Position numbers and translations under genes: made by a program
Source of the DNA: Porticoccaceae bacterium UBA2002
Lineage (GTDB): Bacteria; Pseudomonadota; Gammaproteobacteria; Pseudomonadales; Porticoccaceae
Direction of reading: 5' to 3'
NCBI GenBank assembly: GCA_002334915.1
Contig: DDCQ01000005.1
Span: forward strand, 30,867-46,670
Length of the DNA stretch: 15,804 nucleotides
Shown: piece by piece, positions 6,434 through 13,827 of the stretch
How positions within the stretch are numbered: the first letter of the stretch is position 1
Layout: each line of letters opens with the position of its first letter
The notes under the pieces: model-generated
What the model was told of the DNA's origin: nothing
The model's input: the letters and a program-made list of their open reading frames with translations, nothing else
Databases searched by the model: none

Positions 6434-6751
6434 TTACTCCTGACTCCAAACCTCACGCAGAGGTTCTCCAAAATCGTCGTAAATGATTTTTTTCTTTGGC
6501 CGCTTGCTGGGCTTCTTAACAGGTTCGGCTGTCTTGCTCTTTTTGCGATTATCGAGTGCGCTCACAGCATGGTTAACATAGGTTCTGGTCTGACGTGGCT
6601 GGGCGCTGACAAAAACCGACCTGGCCCTGGGCCTGTCCGCAGGCTCACCTGTCTCTCCTGCATTGTGCTGTTTTATCTCGCCACCACGAGACAGAAACTC
6701 CTCCGTTTTCCGGCGAAGCTCTCTGCGCAAAGATTGTTTAGAGCTAGTCAT
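6434..6751 (-). CDS. Small basic hypothetical protein with EEFLSRGG motif
   Basis: 105-residue protein from ATG 6751 (a GTG three bases further upstream is possible). It has no signal peptide or membrane segment. The N-terminal part (about 4-27) is a charged, probably helical stretch, L-R-R-E-L-R-R-K-T-E-E-F-L-S-R-G-G. The middle is low-complexity, rich in Arg, Pro and Ala. The tail is lysine-rich (K-K-P-S-K-R-P-K-K-K), then ends acidic and aromatic in I-Y-D-D-F-G-E-P-L-R-E-V-W. The E-E-F-L-S-R-G-G segment resembles one I remember in SutA, a small RNA-polymerase-binding protein of Pseudomonas, but the rest does not, since SutA is acidic at its N-terminus. Composition suggests a nucleic-acid or polymerase-associated disordered protein; this is inference. 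It lies 80 bases downstream of the dinB stop, on the same strand. Coding is supported by its non-random motifs and lack of overlap with other genes. Confidence 0.72.
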   Translation of the reverse strand: MTSSKQSLRRELRRKTEEFLSRGGEIKQHNAGETGEPADRPRARSVFVSAQPRQTRTYVNHAVSALDNRKKSKTAEPVKKPSKRPKKKIIYDDFGEPLREVWSQE

Positions 6752-6831
6752 CACAGTAATTGTTTAATCTCAAAGCCAACGCACGAGTCTACCAAAGCCG
6801 TTTAGATAAGCAAATACAGCTAAATTTGCGA

Positions 6832-7953: not shown

Positions 7954-10900
7954 TCAGGCCGCTTCATCTTCATACTGATGCTCAGCGACCCTGACACCAA
8001 AGCGCTTGGAGATGATCTCTGGAAGCAGCAGCATAGCAGGCGTCAGTAACAATGTGAGCACAGTGGATACCACCAGCCCGTTGACAATAGCACTGGCCAG
8101 CGGCTGCCACCAGGATGCAACCATGCCACCTAGAGTAAAGCTGCGGTTTACCAGGTCGATACTCAGTCCGTTGGCCAGGGGTAAGAGGCCCACAATGGTG
8201 GTAATACTGGTCAGCAGCACCGGCCTGAAACGCGACCTTGCCGCGTTGTAAACCGCCTCTGCAGCTGACAGCTGGCTGTTGTTGCGCCGCAAATAGTTAT
8301 AGGTATCGATCAGAACAATATTGTTATTCACCACAATACCAGCCAGAGCCACAATACCCACGCCAGTCAAAATGGTACTGAATGTCGCCTGAGCGATAAG
8401 TAGCCCCAATAGCACACCTGCCGTAGACATCACCACAGAGAATAGAATAAGTCCCGCCTGGTAAAAGCTATTAAATTGCATCACCAACATAATTAGCATC
8501 ACTGACATCGCCAGTGAGAATGCAGTAGACAGAAACTCAGCTGCCTTGGTCTGCTCTTCATTGGCACCGCGGAAAACAATATTGACCGATGAATCAAAGT
8601 TCTGGGTGGCCAGCCATTCGCCAATTTGGCGAGTCTGGTCATCGGGCAGGTAACCCTCTTTTGAGTTTGCCAAAATAAATACTGTCTCGGCCATATTGAT
8701 ACGCTGAATTACATCCACTCGCGGCTTGGCAACACGCTGACTAAAACTTCCTATTGGCACTGCCCCGCTAGGTGTATTCACCCTTAAACCATCAATGGAG
8801 GCTAGCTGTCGATCCTGCTCAGGATAACGCAGGCGAATTTCAACCTCATCATCTGCATCATCGGGACGAAATTCACCGATCATAACCCCGCCAGTGACCA
8901 TCTGTACCATATTGCCTACCTCGGCAACATTAACTCCGAGCATCGCTGCACGAGAGCGGTCCACATCAATCTCCCACTGGATGCCAGCCAGAGGCAGAGT
9001 ATCCTGCAGATCCCGCACTCCTTCAACATTATCGGCAATCCACTGTCGAATCTGATCAGTCACTCGATACATAGCTTGACGATCAGAGGCTGAAAGCTGT
9101 ATCTGGATATCCTTGCCCACCGGCGGCCCGGATTCCATCTCCGACGCACTCACATAGACGCCGGGTAAGGATTTAGTTTTCTGGCGAATTTCTTCGAAGA
9201 TTTCAGCACTGCCTCTATCTCGCTGATCGCGGGGGTAGAGCTCAATCAGGAATGAACTGATTTCATCGCGGCTTACATCGGTGCCAAAAAGTACCATACT
9301 GCTGCCTTTGGCATTGCCATAGAGCTGAGCAACACCCTCGACATCGGCCACAATATCCTGCACCTTAAAAGTCAGCTCCCTCTGTTCATCTATGGAAATA
9401 TTACCCTGTGCTCGCACACCGGCCATGCCATATTGACTTTCAATTGGCGTAAAAAATTCCTGACCGGCATTAAATTTTCCGTAGAGACTAAAGATACCCA
9501 CAAGCACCAACATAGCGACAGCGGCTGAGATTAATGGGGCACCGATAACGGGGCGCAGGACACGCAGATAAGCAGTTTCAAGTGGCTGAAAAAAGGTAGC
9601 AGCTAACTCTTCTGAATGATGGTCTTCAGGAAGTTTTTTACGCTGCCCCCGCCTGCGCGCCAGAACAATGCCCAGAGTGGGGGCAAAAATAAGCGCATAG
9701 GTAAGCGACCAGGCCAGCACTGCGAAAACGGTAAGCGGCAGGTAGGACATAAAGTCACCTGAGACGCCCGGCCAAAACAATAGCGGCAGAAAGGCTGCCA
9801 ATGTGGTTCCGGTTGAGGCAATCACCGGAATCGCCATACGTCTGACCGCGGCTATATAGGCCTCGCGCGCAGGCAGGCCCGCTGCAGCCTGAGTATTGGC
9901 AAACTCCACCACCACAATGGCGCCATCAATCAACATACCCAGCGATAGCAACAGTCCAAACATAACCATAAAGTTGAAGCTGTAGCCCAGCATATTGATA
10001 AAAATAAGCGAGCCCAGCAGACAGAAGGGTATACCGAAACCAACCAGCAACCCGGATTTGACTCCCAGCGTGGCCACCACCAGCATCAGTACCAGACACA
10101 TAGCGGTAATAATATTGCCCTGCAGCTCGTCCACCATCTGCTTGGTAAATATTGAGGAATCAAACACGTAGCCTATATCCATATCGGCACTAAATTTTCT
10201 GCGTGACTGATCTACCACAGCTCGGGAGGCCTCGACAGTTTTGATTAAATTGCTGTTGAGCCGTTTGCGCACCTCAATGGCAATCGCTTTTTTGCCATTG
10301 ATAAAACTGTAACCGGTGGCATCTTTAAAGGTGCGCTTTACCGAGGCTACATCACCAAGGGTAATAGAACCCTCGGGACTATGACGCACCGGGAGGGCGC
10401 GAATATCTTCAGTGGTTTCAATTAATGCCGGGACCTTGATACCAAAACGCCCCTGAGCCGCATCCATCTCTCCAGCGGGAATCAGCAGGTTGTTGACGGT
10501 GACAGCGCGAACAAGCTCATCTATGCGCAGTCCGTATTGCTCCAGTCGCGCTGGATCCACAACAACATCAACCACCTCGTCTCTGTGCCCGGATATATCT
10601 GCTTTAAGCACTTCAGGGAGCATTTCCAGTTCGCGCTGATAATATTTAGCCGCCCTATGCAGCTCTCGCTCGGCCACATTGTCCCCTGAGAAGGTGATCA
10701 CAATAGTGGGTTCCGGGCTGGGGCTCAGCTCATTGACTATGGGCTCTTTAGTATCCTGAGGGAATTCTGCCTTGGCGCGATCGACCGCTTCACGGACCTC
10801 TGCAACTATCTCTTTGATATTATCCGCCGCTTCAAACTCAGCAGTTACAACAACCATGCTCTCTTGGGCTGTCGCCTGAATCTCCTCCAGACCGTCGAGG

Positions 10901-11118
10901 GTTTTTAATTCCTTTTCTATTGGTCGAATCAACAACCGGGCTCCATCCTCGGGAGATATACCATCATGCTGGACCATGATCATTACCACGGGCAGAGTGA
11001 CATTTGGGTTCATCTCCACCGGCATGGATAGTCTCGACCCTGCGCCAGCAACCAGAATCAGCAGCATAATTGAAAGCGTTGCTCTGGAGTGATCTACAAT
11101 AAGATTGAGAAATTTCAT
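7954..11118 (-). CDS. RND (HAE1-type) efflux pump inner-membrane subunit
   Basis: 1054-residue resistance-nodulation-division transporter, of normal length for the family. The first transmembrane helix (about 12-28) is followed by a large periplasmic porter region. Helices TM2-TM6 start near 335, a second periplasmic loop begins near 555, and a final helix bundle runs from about 860 to 1035. TM4 reads G-M-L-I-D-G-A-I-V-V-V-E (394-405): only one (D398) of the two Asp residues of AcrB (D407/D408) is kept. TM10 reads G-I-V-V-N-N-N-I-V-L-I-D (927-938), with Asn at the position of AcrB Lys940. These features place it among HAE1-like RND proteins that differ from AcrB in the proton relay. The substrate cannot be read from sequence. 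It is translated after its adaptor with a 31-base gap; no outer-membrane factor gene is nearby, so it probably uses a TolC-like protein encoded elsewhere. Confidence 0.93.
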   Translation of the reverse strand: MKFLNLIVDHSRATLSIMLLILVAGAGSRLSMPVEMNPNVTLPVVMIMVQHDGISPEDGARLLIRPIEKELKTLDGLEEIQATAQESMVVVTAEFEAADNIKEIVAEVREAVDRAKAEFPQDTKEPIVNELSPSPEPTIVITFSGDNVAERELHRAAKYYQRELEMLPEVLKADISGHRDEVVDVVVDPARLEQYGLRIDELVRAVTVNNLLIPAGEMDAAQGRFGIKVPALIETTEDIRALPVRHSPEGSITLGDVASVKRTFKDATGYSFINGKKAIAIEVRKRLNSNLIKTVEASRAVVDQSRRKFSADMDIGYVFDSSIFTKQMVDELQGNIITAMCLVLMLVVATLGVKSGLLVGFGIPFCLLGSLIFINMLGYSFNFMVMFGLLLSLGMLIDGAIVVVEFANTQAAAGLPAREAYIAAVRRMAIPVIASTGTTLAAFLPLLFWPGVSGDFMSYLPLTVFAVLAWSLTYALIFAPTLGIVLARRRGQRKKLPEDHHSEELAATFFQPLETAYLRVLRPVIGAPLISAAVAMLVLVGIFSLYGKFNAGQEFFTPIESQYGMAGVRAQGNISIDEQRELTFKVQDIVADVEGVAQLYGNAKGSSMVLFGTDVSRDEISSFLIELYPRDQRDRGSAEIFEEIRQKTKSLPGVYVSASEMESGPPVGKDIQIQLSASDRQAMYRVTDQIRQWIADNVEGVRDLQDTLPLAGIQWEIDVDRSRAAMLGVNVAEVGNMVQMVTGGVMIGEFRPDDADDEVEIRLRYPEQDRQLASIDGLRVNTPSGAVPIGSFSQRVAKPRVDVIQRINMAETVFILANSKEGYLPDDQTRQIGEWLATQNFDSSVNIVFRGANEEQTKAAEFLSTAFSLAMSVMLIMLVMQFNSFYQAGLILFSVVMSTAGVLLGLLIAQATFSTILTGVGIVALAGIVVNNNIVLIDTYNYLRRNNSQLSAAEAVYNAARSRFRPVLLTSITTIVGLLPLANGLSIDLVNRSFTLGGMVASWWQPLASAIVNGLVVSTVLTLLLTPAMLLLPEIISKRFGVRVAEHQYEDEAA

Positions 11119-11149: not shown

Positions 11150-12217
11150 TTAGTTTAAGGAACTAGATTGATAGGAGGGATTAACCAGCTCGCCATCAAT
11201 TACATAGTTCTGACCGACCACAATCAGGATTACATCTGAATCCATTCCAGTCACCCAAATGCCGGCCGAAGATTCACCAACCACTGTAACCCTCACTGAA
11301 TCGACCATACCTTCCTGACTCAATACCCGCACCGCTGTCTCGCCCTGATCATCCAGTAAAATACTGCTAGCTGGAATCAGATGGGCCGGCTTGGCATTAG
11401 CTAGAACAGTTAATCTCGCAGAAATACCCGCTCTGAGAGTTCGGTCCGGATTAGGCATTGTCGCTTCCACTCTGTAGCCTTTGGTGGCAGGGTCTGCCTG
11501 ATAAGCCAGAAAAGAGATCACCGCCCCCTCATAATCCTTGCCCGCAATATTAACCAGAGCTCTGTCACCTAATGCCAGAGCACTTATCTCTCTCTCAGCC
11601 ACCAGGGCCTCAACTTTCAATGGATTCAGCTCAAGGACAGTGGCACAGAGTTGTCCTGCCATTATAAAGTCGCCAATTTCAACAGGACGGGTTTCCACAA
11701 TGCCATCGAAGGGCGCCTTGATCTGCAGGTTTTGGACGTCAAGGCGGGCGCGCTTTAAATTTGTTCTGGCTGCGGCCTGAGTCGCTTTGGCTTGAGAAAT
11801 AGCCAAGTCAGACTGATACCCAGCGCTTTTTAACTTCAGTGCGCCGCGATAGGCAATATCCGCATTTTCCAGAGACGCTTTGGCCTGAGCCAGACGCAGA
11901 TGACGATCCTCTGCATCGATCTGGCAGATGCCCTGTCCCGCTGTCACAAAACTGCCCTCTTCAGCAAGAGTGGCAGAGATTTTTCCAGAGACCTGAGCAA
12001 GCACCTGTACATCTCTGTTGGCCTTAGTCTTGGCTCGCAGAGAAATAGTTGGATTGAAAGGCCGCTCGACAGAATTTATAACCTGCACATTAGTCAGTGA
12101 ATTAGCTATCTCTTTAGCTTCAGTATCCATGGGCTCAGCATCACGCAGCAGGCCGCTAAAAAACCACAGTAAGAGAGCCACAGCGAAAATAAGCGCAAGA
12201 CGAAGATTAGTATTCAA
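11150..12217 (-). CDS. RND efflux periplasmic adaptor (membrane fusion protein)
   Basis: 355-residue HlyD/AcrA-type adaptor joining the pump to an outer-membrane channel. An N-terminal hydrophobic segment (about 7-23) with no lipobox suggests a membrane anchor rather than a lipoprotein. A lipoyl-like half-motif V-L-A-Q-V-S-G-K-I lies near 71-79. An Ala/Lys-rich alpha-helical hairpin follows (about 107-162), then the second lipoyl half I-K-A-P-F-D-G-I-V-E-T near 166-176, and beta-barrel and membrane-proximal domains to the end. The start is TTG at 12217: an in-frame TGA lies just upstream, AAGG is nine bases before the TTG, and the next ATG (residue 30) would remove the membrane segment. It is the first gene of the adaptor-pump operon and faces the CHI/TonB fusion gene across a shared intergenic region. 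Confidence 0.9.
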   Translation of the reverse strand: MNTNLRLALIFAVALLLWFFSGLLRDAEPMDTEAKEIANSLTNVQVINSVERPFNPTISLRAKTKANRDVQVLAQVSGKISATLAEEGSFVTAGQGICQIDAEDRHLRLAQAKASLENADIAYRGALKLKSAGYQSDLAISQAKATQAAARTNLKRARLDVQNLQIKAPFDGIVETRPVEIGDFIMAGQLCATVLELNPLKVEALVAEREISALALGDRALVNIAGKDYEGAVISFLAYQADPATKGYRVEATMPNPDRTLRAGISARLTVLANAKPAHLIPASSILLDDQGETAVRVLSQEGMVDSVRVTVVGESSAGIWVTGMDSDVILIVVGQNYVIDGELVNPSYQSSSLN

Positions 12218-12606: not shown

Positions 12607-13827
12607 ATGAACAATCACAGCCATGCTCCGGCGAATGGAGTGAATCGGGTGAATCGGGTGAATCGAGCAATCAACCACAGGCATCCATTCGCAACTGTGG
12701 GCACTTTAATACTGTCTTTTCTATTGGTCTTCTCCAGCGGCGCACAGGCCGAACTGCAACTCAATGGCAGTGCTATCTACCAAGACCTCGGCAAACAGCA
12801 GTTTGTGGCAGCATTATTTGTAGAGAACCTGAGTAATAATGCCAATAGCATACAGCTACAACAGAGTCCCAAGCGCATGGAGGTGAGGATAATCAATGTC
12901 TACTCCAAGCGCCGCTGGCTCAATCTGTGGATGCAGAGCATTTCAATCAATAACGACCGCGAGAGCTTTTCAGGCTCGGCACAGGAGGTTATTGATATTA
13001 TGCGCGCGCCCAGATCTGCACCAAAGAAAGGCGATGTTATCGAGTATCTGTTTGATCCGGATCAGGGTACCTCAGTGCGCTTTAACGGCACCGAACTAAT
13101 CGCCAATTACCCTCCGCAAGTGTTTAATATTCTGTTGCGCACCTGGATAGGGCCCATACCGCCATCAACCGCCTTTAAAGATCAGCTCTTGGGTAACAGC
13201 ATTGATATGGATGCAGAGGAGCTACTGACTGATATTCAGCCCCAGAGAAGCAGAATTGCCCTGGCGGCCTCGTGGATGGCACCCCCTCCCGAACCAGCTA
13301 GTCCAGAGCCTGCCGCAGAAAATCCCGAGCCAGAGGCAAAACCACAGATAGCAGCAGTGGAAAACCCGGCAGACGGGGAGTCCGAGTCAGTAGCGGCGAC
13401 AGAGACTGAGGGGTCAGATTTATTGGCCAGCGCTGAACAATCACCAGCCGAAAGTACGGCCGCGGCTGATGAGACAGATACCGAAATAGCTGAACAGCTA
13501 GAGGAGGAGATTGCAGACTTTAATGTCTCCGAAGCTCTGGCTCAGCGGGACTACACACCGCTGGTAGTGGCACAAATTTACAAAGCAATTCGCTACCCCA
13601 ATCGCGCAGCAGACAAAAATCAGCAGGGGACTGTGCGCATAGGTGTCACTATTGACCGCTCTGGACATTTGATCAGCGCGGTAACCACTCATGAATCCAG
13701 ATATCGGCTGTTAAATCAGGCTGCACTTAAAGCTGTTAAAAAAGCGGCACCATTCCCAGAGCTACCAGAGGCAATGAAGGCTGACAGCTTTGAGGTAAAT
13801 CTGCCAATCACCTTTAGATTGCAATAG
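12607..13827 (+). CDS. Exported protein fusing a chalcone-isomerase-like domain to a TonB C-terminal domain
   Basis: From ATG 12607 the protein has 406 residues (a GTG at 12568 would add 13); AGGAAAGGA lies just upstream. Residues 1-48 look like a signal peptide with a long polar n-region, hydrophobic 28-43 and cleavage A-Q-A|E. Residues 49-198 resemble the bacterial periplasmic chalcone-isomerase-like family (Chalcone_3): P-K-R-M-E-V-R near 88-94, K-K-G-D near 140-143, G-T-S-V-R-F-N-G-T-E-L near 154-164, and L-L-R-T-W-I-G-P-I-P near 176-185. Residues 225-300 form a Pro/Glu/Ala-rich acidic linker. Residues 312-406 form a TonB C-terminal domain: R-Y-P-N-R-A near 329-334, G-T-V-R-I-G-V-T-I near 341-349, and A-A-P-F-P-E-L-P near 380-387. 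Ligand and partners are unknown. Automated annotation might call it simply energy transducer TonB, but there is no typical TonB membrane anchor and no exbB/exbD beside it. Confidence 0.85.
   Translation: MNNHSHAPANGVNRVNRVNRAINHRHPFATVGTLILSFLLVFSSGAQAELQLNGSAIYQDLGKQQFVAALFVENLSNNANSIQLQQSPKRMEVRIINVYSKRRWLNLWMQSISINNDRESFSGSAQEVIDIMRAPRSAPKKGDVIEYLFDPDQGTSVRFNGTELIANYPPQVFNILLRTWIGPIPPSTAFKDQLLGNSIDMDAEELLTDIQPQRSRIALAASWMAPPPEPASPEPAAENPEPEAKPQIAAVENPADGESESVAATETEGSDLLASAEQSPAESTAAADETDTEIAEQLEEEIADFNVSEALAQRDYTPLVVAQIYKAIRYPNRAADKNQQGTVRIGVTIDRSGHLISAVTTHESRYRLLNQAALKAVKKAAPFPELPEAMKADSFEVNLPITFRLQ
12640..12666 (+). repeat. Three tandem copies of a 9-base repeat in the signal-peptide coding region
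   Basis: GTGAATCGG occurs twice in direct succession, followed by a third copy ending in A (GTGAATCGA). The unit is three codons long, encoding V-N-R three times (residues 12-20 of the fusion protein), so copy-number change would lengthen or shorten the n-region without shifting the frame. Confidence 0.9.

Follow-up and report, generated by a model that had tools for sequence, protein, structure and literature searches.

What could a protein be doing that carries a chalcone isomerase (CHI)-like domain and a TonB C-terminal (TonB_C) domain in one reading frame? The question is raised by an open reading frame (ORF) at 12607-13827 (+) of a 15,804-nucleotide stretch of Porticoccaceae bacterium UBA2002 (contig DDCQ01000005.1), referred to here at its full length as the window. 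The host of the fused gene is a marine SAR92-type bacterium with a genome of 2.04 Mb at 82.3% completeness, in which the window lies on contig 49. The ORF opens with a signal-peptide-like segment, followed by a Chalcone_3 domain, then an acidic Pro/Ala/Glu linker and finally a TonB_C domain. Our tentative answer, and the one we favour among several, is that the protein acts in the periplasm as a soluble adaptor that lacks a motor and docks an envelope partner through TonB_C. Computation established the domain make-up, the clustering of the fused proteins in one clade, the absence of a conserved arginine and the recurring gene settings. The parts of the protein are as follows.

12607..12750 (+), signal-peptide-like N-terminus, residues 1-48; in the sequence a hydrophobic stretch, then AQA and E on either side of the putative cut
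12745..13194 (+), Chalcone_3 domain of CHI fold, residues 47-196, by Pfam
12778..12780 (+), codon of Tyr58, the column of the CHI alignment that is Arg in 30/36 stand-alone CHI rows
13195..13278 (+), extension specific to the fused proteins, residues 197-224, with Arg216 and Trp223, by alignment
13279..13533 (+), acidic Pro/Ala/Glu linker, approximately residues 225-309, by composition and the confidence score (pLDDT) of the structure model
13534..13824 (+), TonB_C module, residues 310-406 (Pfam match 328-405), with Tyr330-Pro331, by PF03544 and fold matches

The fusion of the two domains is confirmed. The first-pass annotation had called both of them from motifs and proposed a hidden Markov model (HMM) search and a structure check; both calls were borne out, as PF16036 (Chalcone_3) matches the ORF with 58.3 bits against a gathering cutoff of 27 and PF03544 (TonB_C) with 60.7 bits against 24.6. 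In addition, fold comparison of a structure model assigns the predicted CHI part to the CHI fold and the predicted C-terminal part to TonB C-terminal domains. The best solved-structure match of TonB_C by sequence is HasB (2m2k, E 1.1e-5), and in 27 diverse fused proteins Pro331 is kept in 27/27 and Tyr330 in at least 90%. The NCBIfam equivalog test for TolA failed for the window protein (28.5 bits against a cutoff of 59.45). The linker is 86 residues long in the window protein, and its length has a median of 108.5 and a range of 52-234 in 60 distinct fused sequences; in the structure model its pLDDT falls below 50 at residues 235-253 and 255-303. The annotation had also considered that the two domains could be separate genes in all close relatives, and the close relatives turned out to be fused. 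Sequencing or assembly error as the source of the fusion was ruled out, because fused frames recur in many genomes.

The same protein was found at 18 loci in named records from SAR92-clade, Porticoccaceae and 'Pseudomonadales' genomes, e.g. H231, HTCC2207 and MOLA455. Genomes with this architecture and their neighbouring genes were listed, as had been suggested at the outset. A profile built from 20 fused proteins was searched against 341 genomes of the order and the places were read by hand. It was found that full-length or nearly full-length fused matches exist at at least 76 places in at least 67/341 genomes, from 20 families of this order sample. Nine of the 76 places are split into two matches or end at model position 383 and were counted all the same. 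Left out were G149, with the domains in two neighbouring frames, G027 at a contig end, G087 with stops, G695 C9, of 400 residues and matched only in part, the CHI-only G055 and G166, and G075:187177; the last (L040) is fused according to our own model, so that 76 is a lower bound. In G149 (contig C258, 1670-2799) the adjacent CHI and TonB_C frames of 204 and 216 residues may represent a split gene or a draft frame break. In a phylum sample of 398 genomes, four of the matches listed were full-length, in three genomes all belonging to the same order as the window; the remaining matches listed took in a single domain or crossed a stop.

Within the window's family the arrangement differs between genera. 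The window's genus is fused in 7/7 genomes and genus g3 in 2/2, and genera g2 and g4 carry stand-alone CHI in 5/6 genomes, with none in G041. The g3 genome G107 holds both kinds of gene, 12 kb apart; the window's genome has no second Chalcone_3 match. A tree of 76 CHI domains separates 40 fused rows and the unfused L074 from the remaining 35 unfused rows with a split support of 100/99; the program warns that long branches meet at this split and that the support may be false. The 36 stand-alone rows were not drawn at random: they are the best-scoring PF16036 loci and a selected set. One fusion followed by one later loss would be the simplest reading of this tree. The gene at L074 4493-5104 (-) is a CHI of the fused clade without TonB_C, a probable loss of the C-terminal domain. 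At L142 4280-6497 a stand-alone CHI gene lies in tandem with a CHI-TonB_C gene and at L146 3264-5400 the two are divergent, which hints at a partnership.

The CHI domain of the fused proteins has lost one residue and gained others. At position 58 of the CHI alignment Arg is present in 30/36 stand-alone rows and in 0/40 fused rows, which have Tyr (22), His (7), Phe (6) or Glu (5) instead; the six stand-alone rows without Arg show a gap (3), Phe (1), Leu (1) and, in L074 inside the fused clade, Tyr (1). In the PDB, a profile of the stand-alone proteins matches AtFAP1 (E 5.2e-7) and AtFAP3 (E 0.0012). The Arg of position 58 aligns with an Arg of AtFAP1, AtFAP3 and an engineered CHI in weak local alignments, on which the equivalence rests. 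The Arg of the Gly-x-Gly-x-Arg motif of ligand-binding CHI and FAP proteins is not found in the window protein, where the residue is Tyr58. The fused rows keep R102 (37/40), W108 (37/40), N115 (38/40), N116 (35/40) and F173 (36/40), and in the extension at 197-224 Arg216 is present in 40/40 and Trp223 in 31/40 of them. Stand-alone rows show gaps there; these proteins stop within a few residues of the domain end.

These changes bear on the role that the first-pass annotation had proposed, namely a ligand-sensing or ligand-delivering protein bridging the periplasm. Bridging remains plausible; Arg is replaced in 40/40 fused rows, and the ligand-delivery idea is therefore weakened. In its fuller form it would make the protein a carrier or sensor, with heme, a fatty acid or some other lipid bound by the CHI domain and TonB_C docking at outer-membrane transporters. 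In yeast, a swap of the corresponding Arg is reported to have lowered heme binding, which speaks against such a carrier. The gene neighbourhoods argue in the same direction. Stand-alone CHI genes do occur amid lipid-modification genes, at L064 with DUF1365, an amine oxidase and a fatty-acid desaturase, at L071 with DUF2878, DUF1295 and CMAS, and at L112 with SDR and DUF3833, and tblastn with eight lipid-gene queries gave at least one match in 13/48 stand-alone CHI loci. The same queries matched 0/99 fused loci, some of which overlap, and none of the 30 loci of the Arg-bearing clade (L009-L038). The 13 lipid-cluster loci lie mostly outside this clade of 30 rows and mostly outside the 36 stand-alone tree rows, L064 being the only one in the tree, with a gap at the Arg column; their setting therefore says little about the fused genes. 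Two scanned loci of the Arg-bearing clade have rpoS-like, nth, acyltransferase and ETF genes as neighbours. We regard the carrier as unlikely, although it is the nearest competitor of the adaptor. A GDSL lipase autotransporter gene lies near the fused gene L045. In Vibrio cholerae, VC1123 (DUF2878) shows a phenotype in porin expression and VC1122 encodes a cyclopropane synthase; the passages that describe them make no mention of chalcone isomerase (PMC12971978, PMC5241685).

Another question is whether the protein is simply a TonB. An anchored, true TonB would keep its N-terminal helix uncut and work with ExbB/ExbD, the CHI domain being an insert in its periplasmic part. The hydrophobic N-terminal stretch, the TonB_C domain with its Tyr-Pro motif and the ExbD-like genes 3-4 kb off in L044 and L049 are in its favour. 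On the other hand a small-x-Ala pattern with a hydrophobic 12-mer, a permissive heuristic that looks like a cleavage motif, stands directly ahead of CHI in 40/40 distinct fused sequences; a crude lipobox pattern matches 3/40. Moreover, the window's genome, which has 19 Plug-domain matches, contains one further TonB_C match beside ExbB matches, in a run that we take to be TtpC-ExbB-ExbD-TonB-TPR, the labels TtpC, ExbD and TPR being presumed. The exbB/exbD linkage that is common, if not universal, for a TonB energy transducer was not found at the fused loci: among 98 searched sequences (97 loci, some overlapping, and the window) ExbB had no match and ExbD-like genes lay near 2/98, none of them in the window. 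An anchored TonB appears improbable. The two ExbD-like genes are found at L049 6939-9848 and L044 1418-1891; by reading, a TPR gene and a TonB-like ORF stand alongside the one in L049.

The adaptor reading fits these observations as follows. If the signal peptide is cut, as the motif suggests, the protein would be exported and free of the inner membrane; with no hold there, it would receive no energy via ExbB/ExbD as TonB does and would have no link to the proton-motive force. The Arg-less CHI domain, with R102, W108, N115 and R216, could be mainly a docking module for an envelope partner, and the flexible arm may give TonB_C the range to grasp a partner, either a barrel of the outer membrane or a different envelope component. 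In favour of the adaptor are the cleavage-like motif in 40/40 sequences, the separate TonB_C gene by ExbB/ExbD, the 19 Plug-domain matches of the genome, the scarce ExbB/ExbD linkage, the Arg loss, the fused proteins' own conserved residues, the 0/99 lipid matches and a linker of at least 52 residues in 60/60 sequences. A porin beside genes with two TonB_C copies is also in its favour: a same-strand porin is adjoining or one gene away in 7/9 such loci, L041 and L139 being without it. As the porin model was built from three of the nine loci, the independent test is the other six, of which 4/6 are positive; tblastn agrees. A PBP-like gene is also found 3.9 kb away from the gene of L144, which has a single TonB_C.

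Several points weigh against the adaptor. Export and cleavage are deduced from a motif, and porins accompany only the two-TonB_C genes, not the single-TonB_C kind of the window. A TonB-box-like N-terminal extension was not seen in the three porins read. The CHI pocket could still take a neutral ligand without Arg, and the fused gene L042 lies near a gene of fatty-acid-oxidation type (3HCDH/ECH).

The partner of TonB_C could also belong to the cell wall. The protein would then be a cell-wall or envelope-integrity factor whose TonB_C has peptidoglycan, or a protein of the septum or wall, as its partner in place of an outer-membrane barrel. The TonB-like SjdR of Anabaena has a proposed peptidoglycan-structuring role, and a connection of TonB-like proteins with envelope integrity is reported (PMC8597729); Pseudomonas aeruginosa TonB3 is reported to function in the assembly of type IV pili (PMC5285504). 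Both lend this factor some support. It has no constant cell-wall gene neighbour; SLT transglycosylase genes stand near four fused loci (cluster C9: L046, L050, L053, L056) but not in the window's genus. We hold this factor to be unlikely, a little more so than the ligand carrier.

Another recurring companion is a divergent gene with a cyclic-nucleotide-binding domain (the cNMP gene), found beside at least 32/76 fused places; at the match cut-off of E 1e-25 weaker neighbours were missed (G042, L154), so that 32 is a lower bound. Among the 341 genomes 43 have both cNMP and fused genes, 24 the fused gene only, 40 the cNMP gene only and 234 neither (Fisher p 2.7e-15, uncorrected for kinship). Against an association, 60/92 cNMP places do not adjoin a listed fused gene, and at the same cut-off none of the 7 genomes sampled from the window's genus gave a match. 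The cyclic-nucleotide-binding (CNB) domain is the sole Pfam domain of the two members scanned; the model predicts this domain with a helical C-terminus, and its listed fold matches are CNB domains, including parts of Crp/Fnr-type sensors. A CRP-type transcription factor was set aside, since Pfam finds only the CNB domain and the fold matches are to CNB, though the protein may yet bind DNA. Response-regulator, PilZ, CheW and CheB genes and a sub-cutoff CheX match lie near some cNMP or CHI-TonB_C genes (L045 6623-7605, L057 7146-7817, L041 5869-7389).

A bolder version of the adaptor, which we consider rather speculative and less probable than the cell-wall factor, would make the secreted protein a clamp on outer-membrane barrels. 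Held through TonB_C and gated by whatever the Arg-less CHI domain binds, it would set outer-membrane traffic without energy, compete with true TonB and in many lineages be coupled to the cNMP protein. The barrels would be porins in the two-TonB_C branch and perhaps TonB-dependent receptors elsewhere.

At the window locus itself the neighbours are the following.

11150..12217 (-), HlyD-type membrane-fusion protein of a resistance-nodulation-division (RND) pump, divergent neighbour, by Pfam; divergent in 18/18 named loci
7954..11118 (-), AcrB-type RND transporter, PF00873, 543.4 bits; in 17/18 named loci, the other reaching the contig start
13947..14477 (+), inorganic pyrophosphatase (ppa), downstream neighbour, by NCBIfam; in 17/18 named loci, the other being a short locus

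The constancy of the membrane-fusion-protein gene would suit a protein that assists the divergent RND pump. In L054, from the related genus g3, however, the cNMP gene sits between, and clustering found no RND genes beside fused genes of other families; such a role is very improbable, and the RND-pump partner was set aside on these grounds. Together with ppa, rpoS (named by NCBIfam) lies downstream in 17/18 named loci, two genes from the fused CHI in the window. Stand-alone CHI also adjoins an RpoS-like sigma gene at L009-L013, L018-L021, L024 and L032 (cluster D2 in 10 loci, a Pfam scan in one), which may be coincidence. Between lipA and dinB, at 6434-6754 (-), the window has an Arg/Lys-rich ORF of 106 residues without an NCBIfam match. 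In a promoter and terminator scan the counts were not above those of shuffles.

Each part of the protein is already known, and databases show the architecture through precomputed Pfam domain assignments and the label 'TonB family protein'. Sources that name the fused proteins mostly use 'TonB family protein' or 'protein TonB'. No title or abstract found in the literature, with most subscription journals outside the scope, described a CHI-TonB_C fusion. The 'TonB family' naming suggests an energy transducer; should they instead be secreted adaptors, an envelope component that is widespread in the order, SAR92 included, is misfiled, and a role that dispenses with the conserved arginine would be added to those of the CHI fold. 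With the porin-linked two-TonB_C genes, docking by TonB_C outside TonB can be tested directly.

Among known systems, TonB and HasB (PF03544) share with the fused protein the TonB_C HMM, the fold and the Tyr-Pro motif; the fused protein differs in having CHI in front, a cleavable-looking N-terminus and almost no ExbB/ExbD linkage, and in some relatives two TonB_C copies. From TolA it differs by the CHI domain in front and by failing the TolA cutoff. P. aeruginosa TonB3 (PMC5285504) and Anabaena SjdR (PMC8597729) are likened to it by description, as TonB-like proteins with envelope roles outside uptake, and the descriptions, as far as consulted, mention no CHI domain. Bacterial stand-alone CHI, plant FAP and CHI and yeast Aim18/Aim46 have the Pfam family and the CHI fold in common with the fused protein, in which the Arg has been replaced and an extension, a linker and a TonB_C domain have been added.
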